Assembly: GCA_023132135.1 (NCBI GenBank)
Contig: JAGLYR010000082.1
Span: forward strand, 1 to 9,633
From: Candidatus Eiseniibacteriota bacterium
Lineage (GTDB): Bacteria > Arandabacterota > Arandabacteria > JAGLYR01
Direction of reading: 5' to 3'
Length of the DNA: 9,633 bases
Shown: in pieces, positions 1,364 to 9,633 of the stretch
Layout of the letters: every line of letters begins with the position of its first letter
How positions within the stretch are numbered: position 1 is the stretch's first letter
Made by a program: the position numbers and the translations under genes
Notes under the pieces: generated by a model
What the model was told of the DNA's origin: nothing
Database searches by the model: none
Seen by the model: only the letters and a program-made list of their open reading frames with translations

Positions 1364-1398
1364 AGTCCCTAGTCCAGAGTCCCTAGTTCCTAGTCCAA
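1364..1398 (+). repeat. Tandem heptamer array, AGTCCCT type, five units
   Basis: Five 7-bp units run without a break: AGTCCCT, then AGTCCAG, a second AGTCCCT, AGTTCCT and AGTCCAA. The array begins three bases after the stop codon of the QueG-like gene and ends 37 bases before the lipoprotein start. It is one of several period-7 arrays in this window. Confidence 0.85.
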
Positions 1399-1412
1399 GG
1401 AAAAGGGCATCA
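1396..1412 (+). repeat. 17-bp dispersed repeat, copy 1
   Basis: CAAGGAAAAGGGCATCA here matches 9343-9359 at 16 of 17 positions (G versus A at position 12). Both copies are downstream of a gene on the plus strand and next to repeat elements. This copy overlaps the end of the heptamer array. The role is unknown. Confidence 0.5.
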
Positions 1413-1435
1413 AAGATGTGCGTAGAGGGCACAAT

Positions 1436-2524
1436 ATGAACGGCCGACCTGTTCACGGTCCATCCCCAATTCTCCTGCTTCTCCTCTGCGCGCTCGTGCT
1501 GATGGCGGCGAGCTGCGGCAAGGAGGCGTCTGGACCGACGGCGGGGGACATTATTGTAGACCGCATAGAGCGGGCACCTGCAGATTCCCTGTATGTTCCC
1601 CCGTGGTCGGTGGTGGGGGAGAGTGTGGAAGTACGGGTGATGGGGGATGCGGGGCCGAATTCGTGCTACTGGCTGGAGAGGATCGACGTCGACCTGGAGG
1701 ACCACACATTCATCCTGAGTCCCTTCCGCCGCTATGTCGAGCGGTATGGGCGGGTCTGCTCCGGGACGGTGGCTGAGTACGACACGACCCTCGTCCTCCA
1801 ACCGTCCGAGGCTGGAACCTGGTGGGTTCGCGTTCACGCCGCCGGCGACACGCTGGTGGACTCAACGCTGATTGTGGTGACCGAGATCAGCGCCGCCACT
1901 GTTCACTCTCTGGAGGTTTCCACGGGCAGCGTGCTGGAGAGCGGAATCCGGATTCGGCTTCTGGGAAACGCGGGCACATCCCCGCAACACAGGCTGGCCT
2001 CCGTCGGCATTGAAGAGGAGAGCCATTCGTTCACGCTTCGTCTCCTTGCCGGACCGTGCGGGCTGCCGGGATTGCCCTGCGAGACTACGACGGCCGAATT
2101 CGACACCACGCTGGTTCTCTTCCCGGCGGAAGAGGGCACATGGACGCTCAGCGTTGTCGCCGGCAACGGGACCTTCGTGCGGACATCGGAGGTCGTCGCG
2201 AGCGACACGTCTTCTGCGTGGATCTACACTCTGTCCATGCCTCCGGTCTGCGATCTTGCGGAAGGCGTCGATGTTAGGCTGACGGGTGTCGTGGGGAACC
2301 AGGCCTGCCGCGGCCTGACGGAAATCGGCATCGAACTCCGGGACCGCACCTACACACTCCATCCTCTCACGGATTACCTGGACGAGTTCGACTATCCGTG
2401 TCGGACGGGGTGGGTATTCTTCGATACCACCCTCGTTCTTTATCCCCCTGAGCATGGGCCGTGGTGGATTGAGGCCATCGGGTCGAACGGGACTTTCGCG
2501 GATTCGATCAAGGCCAATCTGTAA
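1436..2524 (+). CDS. Predicted lipoprotein with three tandem 107-residue repeats
   Basis: I do not recognise this protein as a named family. The start is ATG 1436, giving 362 residues, with AGAGGG upstream; an in-frame GTG at 1418 would add six residues. A hydrophobic signal (PILLLLLCALVLMAASC) ends in Cys27, a likely lipidation site, so the protein should be anchored in a cell-envelope membrane. The rest consists of three ungapped repeats of about 107 residues. Each has the motif [YF]DTTLVLxPxExGxW, at residues 115, 222 and 329, and a preceding G[DNV]xG block. The high Thr/Val content and alternating pattern suggest beta-sandwich (Ig-like) domains. Repeats 1 and 3 share one Cys pair at equivalent positions, while repeat 2 has a shifted pair. 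The gene lies 75 bp after the QueG-like gene and could be cotranscribed with it. It ends 17 bp from the convergent transporter gene. Confidence 0.85.
   Translation: MNGRPVHGPSPILLLLLCALVLMAASCGKEASGPTAGDIIVDRIERAPADSLYVPPWSVVGESVEVRVMGDAGPNSCYWLERIDVDLEDHTFILSPFRRYVERYGRVCSGTVAEYDTTLVLQPSEAGTWWVRVHAAGDTLVDSTLIVVTEISAATVHSLEVSTGSVLESGIRIRLLGNAGTSPQHRLASVGIEEESHSFTLRLLAGPCGLPGLPCETTTAEFDTTLVLFPAEEGTWTLSVVAGNGTFVRTSEVVASDTSSAWIYTLSMPPVCDLAEGVDVRLTGVVGNQACRGLTEIGIELRDRTYTLHPLTDYLDEFDYPCRTGWVFFDTTLVLYPPEHGPWWIEAIGSNGTFADSIKANL
1556..2518 (+). repeat. Three 321-bp protein-coding repeats inside the lipoprotein gene
   Basis: The encoded units span 1556-1876, 1877-2197 and 2198-2518. They align without gaps at a constant period of 107 codons, as the three DTTLVL motifs exactly 107 residues apart show. 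The DNA has diverged, so the duplications are old and under protein-level constraint. Confidence 0.8.
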
Positions 2525-2541
2525 GCCTGGCCTGGATTGCC

Positions 2542-5169
2542 CTATTGAATATCAATCGGCATGGTGGCCTCGACTTCCCAGGGCCCGGGAAAGCCCATCT
2601 GCACGAAGTAGAGAGGTCTGAGGCCGGTGTCGATGAGGCGTATCACTCTGTTCTGGTATTCCCGGTCCTCGGCGAGATCGTCATACCGCATCAGGACCTC
2701 ATGGAATCCCCTTGAGGTGTAGAAGGACTTGAGGACGTCGATGAATGCCCGGAGCTGTTCGCGGGTTTTCCGCGCCTCCGGTTCGGGAAGGCCGCTGTCG
2801 TCGTAGTACCGCCAGATCTCATCCACGCCCTGGAACAGTTGGGGATCCGGAGGGAAGGAAATCGGCACGCAGGTCGCGTATTCCATGTAGGGCCGGTCGT
2901 CGGTCACCGCGTCGACGGGCGCCAGGTACTTCTTGAGCCGCTGTTCGCCCATCACGAAAATCCCGAGGAGCTCCGGCAACGAGCCCAGCCCGATCATCTC
3001 CATTTCTTCCCGGGCCTCTTTGCGGATCTCCAGTTGCTCGGCCAGGTAGGCCGCGTCGAGCCGGATGGGCGCCATTGATCCCACCAGAATGAGGTCATCT
3101 CTCCAGCCCGACACCAGAATGGTATGCGGGAAGACGTCGACGAATGCCTTGATGGTTTTCCGGATCGTCCACGGATCCAGCTGGTGAATGGGCAGCCACT
3201 GGGAGCAGAACCCGCCCGGGGTCAGATGATCGCGCACGAGTTCGTAGTACTCGCGCGTGTAGAGACTCACCACGTGGGCCAGCGCGATGGGAGGAGGCTC
3301 CGAAGTGATGAGATCGTACTTCTCATCGGTCAGCAGGAGATGGTGCCGCCCGTCGTTGACGAAGGCCCGCACCTTGGGGTGCTGCAGCACACCGTAGTTC
3401 GTCGATTCAAAATATGGGCTGAGAGACAGAATCTCCCCCGAGATCTCCACCACGTCAATCCGCTCCAGCGATGGGTGGAGGGATGCGGCCCTCACCGTGT
3501 TTCCGACCCCGTAGCAGATGATGCAGACCTTCTTAGGATTCTCCTGAAGCAGAAGAGGGAGATGGGCCGTGATCTTCATATACCGGAGGGCCGAGAAAGT
3601 CGTCTGCGTCATGGAATAGCCGTTGGTGAAGAGACCCCGGCAACCACCCAGCCCTTCGGCAATCATGATGGACTCGCTTACTCCCTCGTGCCGGTAGAGC
3701 ACCTGGACCACATCCCGGTCCATCCGGAACGATCCGTCCATCACGTGATACTCGGGAATCCGGGACCACAGCACACCGAGGATCACCGAGGCGGTAACCA
3801 GTCCCGCCACAGCGCGTCTCGCACCCAATGCCCACAGGAGATAAGACCCGGACAACGTCAGGAGTACCGCAATGAGAAGCGTACTGCCCTGGGAGCCCAG
3901 GAGAGCCAGAAACACGAACCCCTGAGCCAACGCCCCCAGTGTTGCCCCCGCGGTGTTGCATGCGTACAGAACCCCCACGCCCCGCCCGATCCGTCTCAGG
4001 CTCCGGTGGAAAAACATGTTCACGAGCGGGAAGGAGATGCCCATCAGGATGGCGGGTATCAGGATCAGAAGGAGCGTGGTCAGGAAGTTGACGAAGTAGC
4101 CGGTGCCGAAGTGATCCAGCGTCACCGGGTACAGGGCGTTGTACAACGCTCCCCGGATGTCGGCCTTCTGCGCCCCGGTCAGGAGCAGCAGAGAGCCCAG
4201 TGCGGTGTAGGCCAGCAGCACCTGGCTCACCGCGAACATGAACAGCGGTCGTTCCTTGAGCGCGCGCACGTTTGCGGCAATCCAGGCCCCTGCAACAATC
4301 CCGACAAGGACAACGGCGAGGACCACGCTCAGCGCGGCCCGGAAGTCCAGAAGGTACGATCCCACGACCCGGAACCAGATGATCTCCAGCGCCATCCCGC
4401 AGAAACCGGAAATCCCGAAGGCCGCGACGGTGCAGACCACCAGGCGATCGGTTCTCGGTTCCCGGCTCTCGACCAGCGGGGTTTCCTGTTCCGGTATTTC
4501 TTCGGCCCGATCCTGCCTGTGGAAGTACAGGAACGCGAGGCTGCCGATTCCCACGACGCCGTTGATCACAGCGGCCAGGATGCCGGTGTTCAACACACCC
4601 ATGGACCGGATAAGAATGAAGTCCGTGGCAAAGCAACCCAGCGCGGCCCCCGCTGTGTTGAGCGCGTAGAGAAGACCGATTCGGCTCCCCGCGGTTACGA
4701 TGGATCGCGAGACATACTTGGCCAGCAGCGCGAGGGTGCCTCCCATCAGGAAAGTGGGAGGCAGGAGAAGAACAGCGGAAACCAGGATTCTCAGGATAGT
4801 GGTGGATCCCGTCAGGTGGAAATACGGATCGGCGATGGCACTGTACTCTGAGATCAGAACGGAGAGCCCGGACATTCGGGGGATGCCGAGGACGAGAAGC
4901 AGGCCGAGAACCCCGATCAGGACCTCGCAGATTGCGTACCAACCAAGGAGCCACCGGATGTTGCGGATACGGGCGTCCGCAATCCGCCCGACGACGAGTC
5001 CTCCCACCCCCAATCCCAGCATGAACACGGCCGCCGCGGTTGCCGCCGCGTGGATCGTGTTGCCGAACACGTTTCCCAGCTGCCGCATCCAGATGATCTC
5101 ATACACCAGTCCGCTGATGCCGGAGGCGAAAAACAAAACGTATGCGAGGCGGTGTGGGTATTTGGACAT
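2542..5169 (-). CDS. Fused MFS-like membrane transporter / spermidine-synthase-like protein
   Basis: The start is ATG 5169 (MSKYPHRLAYVLFFASG...), giving 875 residues. Residues 8-470 hold about 14 hydrophobic segments in two homologous halves. SGLVYEIIWMRQLG (19-32) pairs with FCGMALEIIWFRVVG (256-270), and GLLYALNTAGAALG (165-178) pairs with GVLYACNTAGATLG (399-412). Residues 545-700 form a Rossmann fold like spermidine synthase: glycine-rich YGVGN (553-557), acidic VVEIS (573-577), NDGRHHLLL and YDLITSEPPP (618-627), then SLYTREYYELV. This matches the widespread 'fused MFS/spermidine synthase' proteins, whose activity is largely unproven. E624 sits where the catalytic Asp of true spermidine synthases is expected, so polyamine synthesis is uncertain. 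Residues 234-240 (ESREPRT) in the linker between halves come from a 7-bp repeat array. A much longer in-frame extension from 5412 is rejected because it translates the leader repeats. Confidence 0.88.
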   Translation of the reverse strand: MSKYPHRLAYVLFFASGISGLVYEIIWMRQLGNVFGNTIHAAATAAAVFMLGLGVGGLVVGRIADARIRNIRWLLGWYAICEVLIGVLGLLLVLGIPRMSGLSVLISEYSAIADPYFHLTGSTTILRILVSAVLLLPPTFLMGGTLALLAKYVSRSIVTAGSRIGLLYALNTAGAALGCFATDFILIRSMGVLNTGILAAVINGVVGIGSLAFLYFHRQDRAEEIPEQETPLVESREPRTDRLVVCTVAAFGISGFCGMALEIIWFRVVGSYLLDFRAALSVVLAVVLVGIVAGAWIAANVRALKERPLFMFAVSQVLLAYTALGSLLLLTGAQKADIRGALYNALYPVTLDHFGTGYFVNFLTTLLLILIPAILMGISFPLVNMFFHRSLRRIGRGVGVLYACNTAGATLGALAQGFVFLALLGSQGSTLLIAVLLTLSGSYLLWALGARRAVAGLVTASVILGVLWSRIPEYHVMDGSFRMDRDVVQVLYRHEGVSESIMIAEGLGGCRGLFTNGYSMTQTTFSALRYMKITAHLPLLLQENPKKVCIICYGVGNTVRAASLHPSLERIDVVEISGEILSLSPYFESTNYGVLQHPKVRAFVNDGRHHLLLTDEKYDLITSEPPPIALAHVVSLYTREYYELVRDHLTPGGFCSQWLPIHQLDPWTIRKTIKAFVDVFPHTILVSGWRDDLILVGSMAPIRLDAAYLAEQLEIRKEAREEMEMIGLGSLPELLGIFVMGEQRLKKYLAPVDAVTDDRPYMEYATCVPISFPPDPQLFQGVDEIWRYYDDSGLPEPEARKTREQLRAFIDVLKSFYTSRGFHEVLMRYDDLAEDREYQNRVIRLIDTGLRPLYFVQMGFPGPWEVEATMPIDIQ
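4449..4469 (-). repeat. Three-unit heptamer array inside a coding region
   Basis: On the plus strand three 7-bp units, CGGTTCT, CGGTTCC and CGGCTCT, lie end to end. They are the same unit types as the eight-unit array in the leader of this gene at 5207-5262. Three units make 21 bp, seven codons, so the frame is preserved. They encode roughly ESREPRT in the hydrophilic linker between the two membrane halves. Confidence 0.8.
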
Positions 5170-5206
5170 AGAAGTGAGTGCTCCGTGCCGCGGGCTGGGT
5201 GAGAAC

Positions 5207-5262
5207 CGGCTTTCGGCTCTCGGTTCTCGGCTTTCGGTTCTCGGTTCTCGGTTTTCGGTTCC
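5207..5262 (-). repeat. Tandem heptamer array, CGGTTCT type, eight units, in a gene leader
   Basis: On the plus strand exactly eight 7-bp units follow one another. They are variants of CGG[CT][TC][TC][TC], for example CGGCTTT, CGGCTCT and CGGTTCT. The array lies between the candidate minus-strand promoter (5272-5300) and the ATG at 5169, so it would be transcribed in the 5' leader of the fused transporter gene. If read as protein it gives the seven-residue pattern ESREPRA, a source of false N-terminal extensions. Confidence 0.88.
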
Positions 5263-5271
5263 GAATCGCTT

Positions 5272-5300
5272 ACTATACCGGAAACCTCCCGGTGCGACAA
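5272..5300 (-). promoter_or_regulatory. Candidate sigma-70-type promoter for the fused transporter gene
   Basis: The minus strand has TTGTCG (5295-5300) and TATAGT (5272-5277) separated by 17 bases, matching consensus at 4/6 and 5/6 positions. Transcription would begin near 5265, at the upstream edge of the eight-unit heptamer array, giving a leader of about 95 bases. Confidence 0.5.
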
Positions 5301-5326
5301 GTGGTTGTATGGGTGGGAGATTCGAC

Positions 5327-5355
5327 TTGCAGCGAGCGTCTCGCAGCGATAACAT
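5327..5355 (+). promoter_or_regulatory. Weak candidate promoter for the exporter operon with an internal inverted repeat
   Basis: TTGCAG (5327-5332) and TAACAT (5350-5355) are 17 bases apart and match consensus at 3/6 and 4/6. Between them lies the inverted repeat GCGAG-CGT-CTCGC (5332-5344), placed as an operator would be. The predicted start near 5362 is about 95 bases before the adaptor gene. The region 5170-5456 otherwise contains only the divergent promoter and the heptamer array. Confidence 0.3.
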
Positions 5356-5456
5356 GAAGAGCGGGAGCGAAAACCCTGAACCACGAAGGACAAGAAAACC
5401 CCATCTGCGCAATCGGCGGCAAGTGGGTTCCGATTTTCGGGAGTTTCCGGGAGGGA

Positions 5457-6683
5457 GTGGTGGACACGCACAAGAAAAAAATCTGGATTCCGATTCTAAT
5501 TGTCGTCATTGCGGCCGCCGTCATCGGCTTGCGGCTGAGGAACCACGGCGGGCCCGAGGGCGTCTCCGGGCCCCAGGCCGTGGTGGCGCAGCGCGGTCCC
5601 ATCCGCGTCATCGTCTCTGCCTCCGGCGTCCTGGAACCCATATACCAGGTGGAAGTCAAGTCCAAGGCCAGTGGTCTCATCGAGCAGATGCCGGTGGAGG
5701 AGGGCGATTCCGTTGAGGAAGGACAGCTCCTGGCGGAGCTGGACAAAACGGAAGCGCGGACGGAGTACGACCAGGCCGCGGCCAATCTGGCCAGTGCGAA
5801 GGCCAGTCTCCAATACCTCCGGAAACAGCTGGAACGCCAGCAGGAGCTCTACGAGCAGGATCTCATCTCAGACCTGGAGATGGAGGAGACGAATCTCGAG
5901 CTGGTCCGGGCGGAGTCCCAGAAGGTCTCGGCAGAGGCAAAACTTACGGCCGCGAAGCAGCGATTGGACGATACGGTGGTTCGAGCGCCCGTTCGTGGAG
6001 TTGTCCTGCTCAAGTCCGTCGAAGCCGGGCAGATTATCTCCTCGGGAATCAACTCCTACACGGGAGGGACAACTGTCGCGGTGGTGGCGGACATGTCCCG
6101 GATGCTGGTCAAGACCAGTGTGGATGAGGTGGACATCGGAAGTGTCGAGGTCGGCCAAGCGGCCTCCGTCCGTCCGGACGCGTTTCCCGCTGAGGCCAGC
6201 AGCGGCGAGGTTATCCGGATTGCTCCACAGGGACGGATGGAACAGAATGTCACGACCTTCGAGGTTACCGTCCAGATTCCCAATCCCGACCTGAAGCTCA
6301 AAGCCGGCATGAACTGTTCGGTCGACATCAAGGTGGCGGAGCAGGCGGACGCGATCCTGGTGCCGGTGGAGGTGGTGGGCACGGCGAGCGCGCTCAAGCG
6401 GTGGCGCGCCATCCTGCCGGATCTCCGGATTCCCGAGGGCGTCGGTGGTGGAAGGCCCGGTGGGCCCTACAGGCATTTTGTCATCGTGAGGGAGGACGAT
6501 GGGCCGGCGCTTCGTCCCGTGGAGGTGGGCCTCAACGACATGGAGCAGGTCGAGATTGTCCGGGGACTCCAGGAGGGGGAAGAAGTGCTGATTGCCTCCC
6601 GGTCCCGCGCGCTCCAGGCCCGCGCCGAGTTCCAGGAGCGCATCAAGAGCCGCTCGATGGGCGGATTCAGAAAATCCAACTAG
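5457..6683 (+). CDS. MacA/HlyD-type periplasmic membrane-fusion (adaptor) protein
   Basis: The 408-residue protein starts with Lys-rich residues and a single membrane anchor (IWIPILIVVIAAAVIGL, 9-25). It continues with the first lipoyl half (about 65-97, SKASGLIEQMPVEEGDSVEEGQ), a coiled-coil hairpin (101-171, with QAAANLASAKASL), the second lipoyl half (172-212, VVRAPVRGVV), a beta-barrel (217-293) and a membrane-proximal domain (297-380). This is the order of MacA-type adaptors, which link an inner-membrane ABC exporter to an outer-membrane TolC-like channel. Two GTG codons in tandem (5457, 5460) could start it. GGAGG at 5450-5454 lies two bases before the first and five before the second, so 5460 is at least as likely. 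The MacB-type permease follows 214 bp downstream on the same strand and is the obvious partner. The exported substrate is not predictable. Confidence 0.92.
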   Translation: MVDTHKKKIWIPILIVVIAAAVIGLRLRNHGGPEGVSGPQAVVAQRGPIRVIVSASGVLEPIYQVEVKSKASGLIEQMPVEEGDSVEEGQLLAELDKTEARTEYDQAAANLASAKASLQYLRKQLERQQELYEQDLISDLEMEETNLELVRAESQKVSAEAKLTAAKQRLDDTVVRAPVRGVVLLKSVEAGQIISSGINSYTGGTTVAVVADMSRMLVKTSVDEVDIGSVEVGQAASVRPDAFPAEASSGEVIRIAPQGRMEQNVTTFEVTVQIPNPDLKLKAGMNCSVDIKVAEQADAILVPVEVVGTASALKRWRAILPDLRIPEGVGGGRPGGPYRHFVIVREDDGPALRPVEVGLNDMEQVEIVRGLQEGEEVLIASRSRALQARAEFQERIKSRSMGGFRKSN

Positions 6684-6704
6684 CCTGCATAACCCAAGCT
6701 ATGA
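6684..6704 (+). repeat. 21-bp dispersed box, copy 1 (plus orientation)
   Basis: The box reads CCTGCATAACCCAAGCTATG plus one further A. It recurs inverted at 9607-9627 with two mismatches in 21 bases. It starts immediately after the stop codon of the adaptor gene and lies 13 bases before a heptamer array, as the other copy also adjoins an array. It may be the end of a composite repeat element. Confidence 0.6.
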
Positions 6705-6708
6705 TCAG

Positions 6709-6747
6709 GGAAGAGACGTAAATAGTAAATCGTAAATGGGGGGAGGC
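6709..6747 (+). repeat. 39-bp direct repeat, copy 1, containing a GTAAATN heptamer array
   Basis: This 39-bp segment matches 6832-6870 with a single mismatch (A6724 versus G6847). Its core is three 7-bp units, GTAAATA, GTAAATC and GTAAATG (6718-6738), flanked by GGAAGAGAC and a run of six G including the last base of the array. After this copy an extra GGGGGAGGC precedes the shared AAGGAAG. Confidence 0.88.
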
Positions 6748-6796
6748 GGGGGAGGCAAGGAAGTAGGGGCCTATTCCAATGCAGTTCTCCGAGCGC

Positions 6797-6817
6797 CATT
6801 TACCATTTACAATTTAC
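6797..6817 (-). repeat. Inverted heptamer array between the two direct repeats
   Basis: Three 7-bp units, CATTTAC twice and AATTTAC once, are the reverse complement of the GTAAATN units in the flanking direct repeats. In RNA or single-stranded DNA this array could pair with either flanking array, but only with one at a time. Confidence 0.85.
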
Positions 6818-6831
6818 GGGTGTTGGTCTTC

Positions 6832-6870
6832 GGAAGAGACGTAAATGGTAAATCGTAAATGGGGGGAGGC
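6832..6870 (+). repeat. 39-bp direct repeat, copy 2, overlapping an upstream start candidate
   Basis: This second copy has its heptamer array at 6841-6861. The final unit contains the in-frame ATG at 6859 that would extend the permease by 13 residues. That extension translates repeat DNA, so the gene start is placed at 6898 instead. The gap 6684-6897 holds no gene. Confidence 0.88.
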
Positions 6871-6897
6871 AAGGAAGCTCTGCCCCAAGGGCCGGCC

Positions 6898-8109
6898 ATG
6901 AAATGGTTTGAGTACATCGCAGTCGCACTCTCGGCGGTGCGGAATCACAAGCTCCGCTCAGGCCTGACCGCTCTAGGAATCATCATCGGCGTGGCCGCCG
7001 TTATCACCATGGTTTCCCTTGGGCAGGGCGCGCGGAAGGCGGTCGGCGAGAACCTCCAGTCCCTGGGATCCAATCTTCTCTCCATCCGCCCCGGCAGCCA
7101 GGCTCTGCGGCACGTCCGGATGGGGGAGGGGACGAGTCGGACTCTCAGGGCCGAAGACGCCACGGCTGTTCTGGAATCTCCCTATGTGGCCGAAGCGGTG
7201 CCGGAGTTCTCTGGTGGCGGGCAGCTCAAGCGCGGCAACTCCAACTGGTCCACGCGCATCGTAGGGACTCATCCCGAGCTGGCGCCTGTCCGGAATCTGG
7301 ACCTGGACGAGGGACGGTTCTTCAGTCGCCGCGAAGTATTCTCCTCCGCCCGGGTTTGCGTCGTCGGAAAGACGGTCTACGACAATCTGTTCGGTGGTGG
7401 GTCGGCGGTGGACACATTCATCCGCGTGCGTAACATCAACTTCCGCGTTGTTGGAGTTCTGAGGGAAAAGGGCTATGCGGGATGGTGGAACCAGGATGAT
7501 GTGATCTATGTTCCGCTCACCACCGCTCAGCGGAGACTGTTCGGCGAGGACCATGTGTCCTCCATCAGCGTCCAGGTGTGGGAAACGGGCATGACGGATG
7601 ACGCAATTGTGGATATCGAACGGATCCTGAGGAAGCGTCATCGTCTCCTGCCCGACCAGGACAACGACTTCTACGTCCGCAGCTACGCGGACATCGCCCG
7701 CACTTTCCAGGAAGCCACCGAGACCTTCTCCTACCTTCTTCTCTCCATCGCGCTGGTCTCCCTTCTGGTCGGCGGCATCGGCATCATGAACATCATGCTG
7801 GTGTCGGTGACGGAGCGGACGAAGGAGATCGGGATTCGCAAGGCCATAGGCGCCCGATCCCGGGATATCCGCTGGCAGTTCCTGGCCGAGGCCATCAGCC
7901 TGTGCCTCCTGGGGGGGGGGCTCGGTGTGGTCCTGGGTGTAGCTTCGGCTCAGATCCTGACAAGGGCGGCCCAGTGGAACCTGGAAATCACGTGGCTATC
8001 CATCGCTGTGAGTTTCGGGTTCTCCTTCATAGTGGGCGTCTTCTTCGGATACCTCCCCGCGCAACGCGCCGCTCGCCTCAGGCCCATCGAAGCGCTGAGG
8101 CATGAATAG
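6898..8109 (+). CDS. MacB/FtsX-type ABC transporter permease lacking the ATPase domain
   Basis: From ATG 6898 the protein has 403 residues. It opens with the MacB permease N-terminus (MKWFEYIAVALSAVRNHKLR, then SGLTALGIIIGVAAVITM), placing TM1 at about 22-41. A periplasmic MacB-PCD-like domain spans roughly 45-275. The C-terminal FtsX domain has TM segments near 279-301, 330-352 and 366-386. It carries the conserved ERTKEIGIRKAIGAR (306-320) and ends RAARLRPIEALR. MacB of Escherichia coli carries its ATPase on the same chain (about 650 residues). Here the ATPase is absent and none is encoded in the window, so a separate ATPase elsewhere is required. With the adaptor upstream it should form an efflux or mechanotransmission-type exporter for a peptide, lipid, lipoprotein or drug. 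The ribosome binding site is weak (AAGG seven bases upstream). Confidence 0.92.
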   Translation: MKWFEYIAVALSAVRNHKLRSGLTALGIIIGVAAVITMVSLGQGARKAVGENLQSLGSNLLSIRPGSQALRHVRMGEGTSRTLRAEDATAVLESPYVAEAVPEFSGGGQLKRGNSNWSTRIVGTHPELAPVRNLDLDEGRFFSRREVFSSARVCVVGKTVYDNLFGGGSAVDTFIRVRNINFRVVGVLREKGYAGWWNQDDVIYVPLTTAQRRLFGEDHVSSISVQVWETGMTDDAIVDIERILRKRHRLLPDQDNDFYVRSYADIARTFQEATETFSYLLLSIALVSLLVGGIGIMNIMLVSVTERTKEIGIRKAIGARSRDIRWQFLAEAISLCLLGGGLGVVLGVASAQILTRAAQWNLEITWLSIAVSFGFSFIVGVFFGYLPAQRAARLRPIEALRHE

Positions 8110-8141
8110 AACCAGTCCCCAGCTTCGCCGGGAGTCGACAC

Positions 8142-8171
8142 TTGACGACTTCCATAATCCTGTGCTATAAT
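8142..8171 (+). promoter_or_regulatory. Strong sigma-70-type promoter for the thioredoxin-like gene
   Basis: TTGACG (8142-8147, 5/6) is followed after 18 bases by a perfect TATAAT (8166-8171), with an extended -10 TG at 8163-8164. Transcription would start near 8178, leaving a leader of about 42 bases. The -35 lies in CGACACT-TGACGAC, which faintly resembles the CGACACT heptamers near the right edge. This is the best promoter match I found in the window. It makes the downstream gene independent of the exporter operon. Confidence 0.75.
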
Positions 8172-8219
8172 GCACGTTGTTGAATTCGCAGAGGGTGAAC
8201 CTGCACCAAGGAGAGAAGA

Positions 8220-9302
8220 ATGCGTGTATTGATCGCTCTGGGTTTGTTGGGCATTATGCTGTTCTGTTCGCTGCCGGTGGACGCTGCAGACCGCAGCGTT
8301 GTCATGGAGCACTTCACAAACGCTGGATGCGGACCCTGCTACACCCATGATCCGTGGATCAAGGAGTTCGTGGCCTCACACGAGGACCTGGTCGTGGTTT
8401 CCTACCATGTGTCGTGGCCATGGTCCGGCGACCCGTTCTATCAGGCCAACATCACGGAGAACAATGGGAGGAAGAACTTCTACAATGTCACGGGCGTTCC
8501 TCATATCCGGTTCAATGGAAACCGGGAGCCCGTGTACCCCTACACCGTGAGCAGCCTCGAGGCCCTGTACGCCAGCCTCAATCTCACGTCTCCTGCTGTG
8601 ATCAATCTCTCCGGCACATACACACCGGCCCGAGGGAGCAGGGACGGTTCGGGAACGTTGATTGTCGAAGTGATTGCGGAGCAGAGCTTCGCCGGCGACG
8701 ACAAGAGAATCGTGCTGGCTCTGTGCGAGAACGGGATTCACTACTCGGCGCCCAATGGTATCCAGGATCACTACTGGGTCATGCGGGACATGATCCCGGA
8801 TCACAATGGGATCCCGGTGGACCTCTCGGGGCCGTACCCCGACACGGTCATGATCCAGCAGGACTTCGTCGTTCAGTCCACCTGGAACGCGGACTCCCTC
8901 TACTTTGCCGCCATGCTGCAGATCTTTGGGGGATATAACAAGATCAGGCAAGGCGCCAAGATTGATCTCGGCAAGCTTACGGAGATGACCGATGTCGCGT
9001 CCGGCAGTCAGCCGGTCGGCCTGTCCAGGATTTCCCTTGGCCAGAACTTCCCCAACCCCTGCAATCCGACAACCGTGTTCCCGGTCACGGTTGCCGATGG
9101 AGGACCTGCCAGCCTGACGATCTTCGGTGTCGAAGGTCGCCAGGTGCGAGACGTGTTTGCGGCGCGCCTGACCGCCGGAATCCACAGCATCGAGTGGGAT
9201 GGTCGGGATAACAACGGAGTGCGGGTTGCCTCCGGGATCTACTACGCGCGCTTCGAGGCAATGGATCAGATGAAGGTGCGAAAGCTTGTGGTAATCCGGT
9301 AG
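8220..9302 (+). CDS. Secreted thioredoxin-fold (Omp28-like) protein with FlgD-like/T9SS-like C-terminal tail
   Basis: The 360-residue protein begins with a clear signal peptide (MRVLIALGLLGIMLFCSLPV, cleavage near residue 21-23). A thioredoxin-like domain follows, with VMEHFTNAGCGPC giving the redox pair C37-G-P-C40, and TGVPH (91-95) providing the conserved cis-proline loop. The Omp28-related family shares the 'E.FTN..CGPC' opening. Residues about 130-255 form a middle beta-rich region. The C-terminus (273-360) is a FlgD-Ig-like domain with LGQNFPNPCNPTT, LTAGIHSIEWDGRD, GVRVASGIYYARF and a basic end KVRKLVVIR. This is the type used as a secretion or surface-anchoring tail in FCB bacteria. 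A periplasmic or cell-surface thiol-disulfide role is inferred. ATG 8220 has AAGGAG six bases upstream and a strong promoter. A hairpin terminator follows, so it is monocistronic. Confidence 0.92.
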   Translation: MRVLIALGLLGIMLFCSLPVDAADRSVVMEHFTNAGCGPCYTHDPWIKEFVASHEDLVVVSYHVSWPWSGDPFYQANITENNGRKNFYNVTGVPHIRFNGNREPVYPYTVSSLEALYASLNLTSPAVINLSGTYTPARGSRDGSGTLIVEVIAEQSFAGDDKRIVLALCENGIHYSAPNGIQDHYWVMRDMIPDHNGIPVDLSGPYPDTVMIQQDFVVQSTWNADSLYFAAMLQIFGGYNKIRQGAKIDLGKLTEMTDVASGSQPVGLSRISLGQNFPNPCNPTTVFPVTVADGGPASLTIFGVEGRQVRDVFAARLTAGIHSIEWDGRDNNGVRVASGIYYARFEAMDQMKVRKLVVIR

Positions 9303-9342
9303 CCTGCATTTCTCACCAGCGGCCGGGAGACAGTGCTTCGTG

Positions 9343-9359
9343 CAAGGAAAAGGACATCA
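9343..9359 (+). repeat. 17-bp dispersed repeat, copy 2
   Basis: CAAGGAAAAGGACATCA matches 1396-1412 at 16 of 17 positions. It lies between the thioredoxin-like gene and its terminator. The stretch 9303-9633 holds no gene that I can support, only this repeat, the terminator and inverted-repeat pair, the heptamer arrays and the 21-bp box. Confidence 0.5.
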
Positions 9360-9365
9360 TAACAT

Positions 9366-9392
9366 CGTAGGGGCGACCCGGTGGGTCGCCCT
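9366..9392 (+). repeat. 27-bp inverted repeat, left arm
   Basis: This arm is the perfect reverse complement of 9426-9452. The arm is itself nearly palindromic because it contains the GGGCGACCC/GGGTCGCCC hairpin. The two arms can fold separately into small hairpins or together into one long stem of 27 bp around a 33-base loop. Confidence 0.9.
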
Positions 9393-9396
9393 TTTT
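9371..9396 (+). terminator. Rho-independent terminator of the thioredoxin-like gene
   Basis: A perfect 9-bp GC-rich stem (GGGCGACCC, 9371-9379, with GGGTCGCCC, 9383-9391) encloses a 3-base loop and is followed directly by five T (9392-9396). It lies 68 bases past the stop codon at 9302. The mirror copy at 9427-9451 has no T run on its 3' side in either direction, so only this one looks functional. Confidence 0.82.
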
Positions 9397-9425
9397 CCCT
9401 GCAGGGACTTAAGCCCCCGGAGGGG

Positions 9426-9452
9426 AGGGCGACCCACCGGGTCGCCCCTACG
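9426..9452 (-). repeat. 27-bp inverted repeat, right arm
   Basis: This is the perfect inverted counterpart of 9366-9392. The 33 bases between the arms include the 10-bp palindrome CCCTGCAGGG (9397-9406). The paired layout looks like a small palindromic intergenic element. Confidence 0.9.
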
Positions 9453-9505
9453 GGGCTGGTCAGAGCATAGTCCCGTTTGGCCTGCGGAATTCTGCCCTAT
9501 TTCCT

Positions 9506-9533
9506 CGACACTCGACACTTGTCACTCGTCACA
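9506..9533 (+). repeat. Tandem heptamer array, CGACACT type, four units
   Basis: Four 7-bp units, CGACACT twice, then TGTCACT and CGTCACA, run together. An inverted array of related units lies 25 bp downstream, so the two could form an imperfect stem. Confidence 0.75.
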
Positions 9534-9558
9534 CAGGCAAGGCCGACGTGTAGATCCA

Positions 9559-9586
9559 GTGACAGGTGACCGGGTGACAAGCGACT
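9559..9586 (-). repeat. Inverted heptamer array, GTGACAG type, four units
   Basis: Four 7-bp units on the plus strand, GTGACAG, GTGACCG, GGTGACA and AGCGACT, are roughly reverse complementary to the array at 9506-9533: CTTGTCAC and TCAC words recur on the other strand. The array is followed by 20 bases and then the inverted copy of the 21-bp box. Confidence 0.7.
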
Positions 9587-9606
9587 AGGATTGGGGAATA
9601 CTGCCG

Positions 9607-9627
9607 TCATAGCCTGGGTTATTCAGG
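9607..9627 (-). repeat. 21-bp dispersed box, copy 2 (inverted)
   Basis: On the minus strand this reads CCTGAATAACCCAGGCTATG plus A and differs from 6684-6704 at two positions. Read in this orientation, the box is followed by a heptamer array and then an inverted array, the same order as at 6684-6817. Confidence 0.6.
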
Positions 9628-9633
9628 AATCCC

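Follow-up and report, generated by a model that had tools for sequence, protein, structure and literature searches.

The window analysed here, a whole contig (C327) of 9,633 nt from a genome assembly of 3.40 Mb in 345 contigs (96% complete), holds several short tandem arrays whose words differ and whose period is 7, which raises the question of what process makes and maintains repeats of this one length. The window was scanned with Tandem Repeats Finder (TRF) and by lag-autocorrelation against first-order Markov controls. The results showed seven period-7 runs where 0.3 were expected (1364-1396, 4448-4471, 5207-5261, 6718-6737, 6796-6817, 6841-6862 and 9504-9532), and zero runs of periods 5, 6, 8, 11 and 13 in the autocorrelation scan. 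The features of the window are listed below, with the element families named as in the genome-scale analysis and the source of each call in brackets.

1364-1398, plus strand: AGTCCCT-type heptamer array of family E, five units with one AGAGTCC slip (TRF, autocorrelation).
1399-1411, minus strand: anchor box GATGCCCTTTTCC, with the array directly after it on the minus-strand reading (also the genome-wide match G000:C327:1384-1410).
4448-4471, plus strand: weak array of CGGTTCT type within the reading frame of a membrane protein with a spermine_synth domain (TRF, ORF).
5207-5262, plus strand: CGGTTCT-type array (family D word) of about eight units, upstream of a minus-strand gene (TRF, autocorrelation).
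6681-6704, plus strand: REP-like H unit TAGCCTGCATAACCCAAGCTATGA, directly adjoining the family C element (sequence).
6708-6818, plus strand: palindromic element of family C, with left arm GTAAATAGTAAATCGTAAATG, spacer, core box and right arm CATTTACCATTTACAATTTAC (four-copy alignment).
6774-6795, plus strand: family C core box TTCCAATGCAGTTCTCCGAGCG, resembling the anchor of families E and A (sequence comparison).
6832-6877, plus strand: truncated second left half of family C, 91% identical at an offset of 123 bp (repeat comparison).
9333-9358, minus strand: family E remnant, anchor-like GATGTCCTTTTCC then GCACGAAGCAC (anchor search).
9484-9610, plus strand: family B element, with a CTCGACA/TTGTCAC left arm at 9504-9533 and a GTGACAG right arm at 9559-9586 (repeat families, alignment).
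9610-9633, plus strand: REP-like H unit TAGCCTGGGTTATTCAGGAATCCC at the end of the contig, directly adjoining the family B element (sequence).

Seven of the arrays that the sequence-only reading had listed were confirmed by TRF and autocorrelation. Its entry at 9559-9586 does not hold four clean units of 7: the segment reads GTGACAG GTGACCG followed by a one-base register slip, was called by neither program, and makes better sense as the inverted counterpart of 9504-9533. The array at 4449-4469, the weakest of the window, sits in an unconserved linker of the spermine_synth-domain ORF and may be a coincidence. The short heptamer remnant and anchor at 9333-9358, GTGCTTCGTGC-AAGGAAAAGGACATC, had been absent from that list. 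Since 6797-6817 is the reverse complement of both 6718-6738 and 6841-6861, the arrays from 6718 to 6861 are the arms of an inverted-repeat element and of a truncated second copy; no inverted partner was called for the array at 5207-5262.

As to the surroundings, positions 2542-5412 encode a large spermine-synthase-domain membrane protein whose top named homologue, at 39% identity, comes from a Rokubacteria MAG, and within 5457-8109 the family C element lies between the genes of an HlyD-type fusion protein and a MacB/FtsX permease. Positions 9366-9452 form a separate hairpin element, a perfect 27-bp inverted repeat of CGTAGGGGCGACCCGGTGGGTCGCCCT with a 33-nt loop and a folding z of -12; TGTAGGGGCGC stretches, akin to CGTAGGGGCGACCCGGTGGGTCGCCCT, adjoin heptamer arrays in another genome, G023 (L188).

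Beyond the window, we sampled about 1.04 Mb of the genome as stretches, seven of which had been picked for holding arrays; a 543-kb subset that leaves out the array-chosen stretches served for the comparison of periods. At a score of at least 12, this subset contained 20 runs of period 7, as compared with 10 of period 8, 6 of period 9, 6 of period 12, 2 of period 6 and none of period 5, and a second-order Markov control built on a 677-kb sample of the genome gave zero period-7 runs at the same score. The sequence-only reading had proposed comparing period 7 with periods 5, 6, 8 and 9, and the excess holds against each of them. Its statement that the period is always 7 went too far: period-8 arrays (CGCCCTCG, GAAGCCGA) and period-9 arrays (CCACGAAGT) occur in the genome, which makes 7 the dominant but not the sole period. 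Arrays of period 8 were located at L123:777-829, L084:3120-3175 and L129:2567-2601, some of them directly after the anchor of the heptamers, and a period-9 array, CCACGAAGTCCACGAAGAACACGAAG, is identical at L049:6947-6972, L071:10287-10312 and L090:11766-11791.

With the score lowered to at least 10, the 1.04-Mb sample yielded 104 period-7 arrays, the set behind every count out of 104 given here; extrapolation gives roughly 300-350 arrays per genome, a figure slightly inflated because seven stretches were selected for arrays. Only 19% of the period-7 arrays lie inside ORFs versus 80% of random 25-mers, and the coding share is 93% for period-6 and 72% for period-9 arrays. Array size ranges from about 3 to more than 20 units, many arrays having about 3. 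The genome thus has the traits of heptanucleotide LSSR/STRR, with a 7-nt unit above both chance and other unit sizes and a mainly intergenic position; such repeats are (near-)perfect iterations of one word, however, whereas the words here are degenerate and drift within arrays.

Self-BLAST of the sample was used to define repeat regions (depth of at least 6), which make up 1.5% of the DNA. These regions were overlapped by 69 of 123 period-7 arrays, but by 0/62 arrays of period 6 and 1/67 of period 9; some period-7 arrays have just one arm or fall outside such regions. For the most part, the arrays are components of palindromic elements of about 50-150 bp that are scattered through the genome, so that much of their abundance comes from element copying and not from a free-standing heptamer generator. 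The usual plan, common to the families while the heptamer words differ, is a heptamer array, a spacer with a conserved anchor box, and a second array, in many cases reverse-complementary to the first. The families are as follows.

Family A, about 100 bp: GAGAATAGACAATAGAGAATAGA ... TCTATTCTCTATTGTCTA.
Family B, about 130 bp: CTCGACACTCGACACTTGTCAC ... GTGACAGGTGACAGGGTGACA; window copy at 9484-9610.
Family C, about 110 bp: GTAAATGGTAAATCGTAAATG ... CATTTACCATTTACAATTTAC; window copy at 6708-6818 and truncated left half at 6832-6877.
Families D and G: words CGAAAGC/GGCTTTC and GGTGAAA/TCACCTC.
Family E: anchor with arrays of GGACTAG or GCACGAA; frequently part of composites; single-armed.

As MITEs do, the elements occur as short, non-coding, multi-copy sequences at dispersed sites, dispersal being judged from copy number. 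They also resemble REP/BIME sequences as short palindromes in mosaic composites, in which heptamer elements directly adjoin one another as well as H units. An H-like motif (TAGCCTGSRTT...) was found within 100 bp of 22/104 arrays versus 9% of random intergenic sites, an enrichment that points to mosaics of heptamer elements and further REP-like units. A known structured RNA family was considered and rejected, as an Rfam search of the window and four element-rich loci matched only tRNAs, and searches with the stretches and a single pattern returned no plasmid or viral copies. A heptamer-free repeat family of about 90 bp (family 2; CGGATCGAAGAGAATCCCCCTTGCC...) was noted at L079:17683-17779 and five other sites.

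Because 20/104 arrays lie within 150 bp of the end of a sequence under 20 kb, in an assembly of 345 contigs, one might suspect an artefact of assembly or binning in a fragmented, metagenome-type assembly. Arrays near contig ends are expected, since repeats break assemblies. Copies also lie inside contigs, their flanks differ, they are not identical to one another, and other assemblies as well as published complete genomes contain features of the same class; we therefore regard an artefact as extremely improbable.

Within 150 bp, 37/104 arrays have a partner that matches them in reverse complement at 12 or more of 14 positions, against 0.8 expected, and a direct partner for 4 of the 104 against 0.4 expected. 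The paired arms give a stem of about 20 bp on one strand. In the terminal-inverted-repeat test, families A, C and D folded into hairpins through their arms and family E was single-armed; single-stranded DNA folding gave z values of -4.9 for C, -4.4 for A and -4.3 for D, and the hairpins of families B and G were no stronger than those of shuffled sequences (z about -0.6). In family A, 94% of arm cells were paired, versus 38-53% when the arms were slid by 1-3 columns. Three pairs of family A had changed on both sides, a covariation that is only suggestive, as 54/500 shuffles reached the same number.

On this evidence we consider it likely that the arrays are parts of non-autonomous, MITE/REP-like, high-copy palindromic interspersed elements, with arms that evolve by steps of 7 nt. 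The single heptamer mechanism supposed by the sequence-only reading survives in part: the excess over many words suggests a common process, but much of the abundance derives from the copying of elements, as the overlap and pairing counts indicate (69/123 and 37/104).

Arrays with different words are preceded by a common anchor box. The anchor consensus of families A and E is TTCYRATGCYCTTNTCC, and the box of family C, TTCCAATGCAGTTCTCC, is similar. When one mismatch was allowed, RATGCYCTTNTCC was directly followed by a period-7 tract in 27/111 matches versus 1/21 for the reversed motif, although the 27 anchored tracts include copies of the same family and the independent evidence is a handful of different words. 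The words that follow RATGCYCTTNTCC are GGACTAG, GCACGAA and TCTATTC/TCTAATT; L123 and L088 have a word of period 8, TCGGCTTC, after the anchor. Anchor plus GGACTA matched 72 times genome-wide and the reversed pattern 0 times. That arrays begin 0-6 nt past the anchor with different words could suggest a templated enzyme, such as a reverse transcriptase, writing them at this site. The sole RVT_1 match in the genome, however, is a reverse transcriptase (RT) gene that neighbours a membrane-protein gene and has no arrays in its vicinity, and the heptamer-rich genome G023 is without an RVT_1 match. The reverse transcriptase was accordingly rejected as a candidate, and we hold templated writing to be very improbable. 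At L204:232-2682, a small membrane-protein gene is followed by that of a reverse-transcriptase-domain protein, an arrangement that may resemble RT defence systems.

How the arrays change was examined by comparing copies and units. Tracts after the family E anchor measure 12, 19, 26 or 33 nt, and the left arm of family B has one, two or three units across copies, again in steps of 7; its right arm in L120 is 15 nt shorter. In L041:17764-17886 the unit drifts through ACAGAAA, ACCGAGA, ACTGAGA and ATAGAAA, while the identity between units drops from 0.82 (lag 1) to about 0.60; at L076:10990-11044, CCTCCCC gives way to CCGAAAG. The register stays intact in both. Drift with a kept register fits local duplication and deletion of units combined with point mutation. 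A complete change of word in an unchanged register means that what persists is the period and not the sequence.

A conserved register with a changing word, together with the many arrays of about three units, also invites the view that the heptamers are iterons bound by a protein that recognises DNA or RNA, with a trio of units spanning 21 bp or two helical turns and selection acting on the spacing; the operators of SARP-LAL regulators are described as heptameric direct repeats (PMC5930380). Such binding sites are improbable here, given the many unrelated words per genome, the spread from about 3 to more than 20 units and the drift of words within single arrays. In the element reading that we favour, elements would be copied into new intergenic sites by some machinery, presumably through active transposition; slippage of the arms at replication, perhaps aided by the hairpin, would gain or lose units mostly of 7 nt; and mutation with local re-duplication would let the word drift while the register stays.

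Word drift with the register kept and length steps of 7 are equally what generic DNA-polymerase slippage with a 7-nt preference would leave in any non-coding DNA, the location in elements being secondary. Heptanucleotides were reported to be the most frequent long simple repeats of most genomes, in many bacteria in excess, and slippage governed by polymerase contacts was proposed as the cause (Mrazek et al. 2007, as cited in PMC4679880). By itself, this explanation does not predict the location in high-copy elements, the common anchor or the inverted pairs. The TAGTCC word of family E has 120 overlapping matches in this genome versus 0 for the reversed control, and its longer form, TAGTCCN, was found in 7/290 surveyed genomes, each of a different family, as a general process would allow. 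On the other hand, TAGTCC was absent from seven same-class genomes examined, and stretches of 21-60 kb from each of four same-class genomes showed no period-7 excess, a weak result in that, at the density of this genome, a few arrays would be expected per stretch; MutS1 is above cut-off in 3/4 of these, as it is here. The look at relatives, which the sequence-only reading had called for, covered these same-class genomes. We judge generic slippage as the whole explanation to be unlikely.

The scattered carriers suggest a trait that is sporadic and recurrent. The anchor was tried as a feature common to the six other genomes carrying TAGTCC and was not found with this word in any of them. One carrier, G023, is rich in other heptamers, 8/21 of which have an inverted partner within 250 bp, and its word TTCGACC was absent from three family mates; a Nitrospinia contig (L152) holds one inverted heptamer pair. 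A dedicated process that writes and rewrites 7-nt repeats beside an anchor, with the period fixed by an enzyme or structure and the word left free, and that acts in scattered unrelated bacteria, seems to us quite unlikely.

Candidates for the machinery behind the favoured elements were sought in the same genome, with Y1_Tnp and RVT_1 as the mobile-enzyme profiles covered. Y1_Tnp gave a single partial match (profile positions 21-82), no arrays lie within its 3.2-kb locus, and same-class genomes without the family E word also have Y1; a RAYT/Y1 transposase was therefore rejected as the mobiliser, and the REP-associated Y1 transposase that accompanies REP/BIME with RAYT has no intact counterpart in this 96%-complete assembly. 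Loss of mismatch repair was rejected as a full MutS1 is present, and loss of SbcD showed no pattern. None of Y1, RT, MutS1 and SbcD explains the elements.

The nearest known systems share single traits with the elements. Cyanobacterial STRR, which the sequence-only reading had named as the analogue, are a real parallel: in Calothrix and Nostoc, too, several different intergenic tandem heptamers occur per genome. The AGTCCCT word resembles the classic cyanobacterial STRR word, CCCCAGT. The arrays here differ in standing in anchored palindromic elements, and the likeness rests on the period. REP/BIME and MITE sequences, including RAYT-associated REPs and REPINs, are likewise high-copy, short, palindromic and intergenic and form mosaic composites, but the arms here are tandem heptamers and the genome holds no intact RAYT transposase.

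The sequence-only reading had called heptamers in a probable FCB-type genome unusual; outside cyanobacteria, a wealth of heptamers has been documented in Xanthomonas, Beggiatoaceae and Bacteroidetes (PMC4692102, PMC4679880). The GGGAATC arrays of Xanthomonas form 70-75 inverted pairs per genome and, as here, are intergenic; unlike ours, they were studied as one word, for which a G-quadruplex was proposed, and are reported to have, in general, no association with mobile elements (PMC4692102). TAACTGA of marine Beggiatoaceae is also intergenic with a scattered phylogenetic distribution, but it is one word, repeated almost always in direct orientation and in most cases immediately upstream of a start codon (PMC4679880). 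In the P6b stem of the tRNA-Leu (UAA) intron (trnL) of Nostoc and Calothrix, as here, a stem is built from interchangeable heptamer words (Class I TDNGATT or Class II NNTGAGT), with seven-nucleotide indels, sometimes on both sides of the stem, and repeated, independent switches from one word to another (PMC4476775). That stem is one group I intron locus, whereas the hairpins described here are dispersed, intergenic and many-copy, with an anchor and at least five words.

Our literature search, which most subscription papers lie outside, returned no description of several dispersed families with a common anchor and differing heptamer words. The heptamer bias and inverted heptamer pairs are already known, and the anchored, multi-word, multi-family design looks like a novel variation on them. 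Since 2007 it has been asked why seven bases dominate the long simple repeats of many bacteria; by tying heptamers to dispersed anchored palindromes, these elements offer a system in which to ask whether slippage in hairpin arms gives the 7-nt steps, and whether the heptamers of cyanobacteria, Xanthomonas and intron stems go back to the same process.
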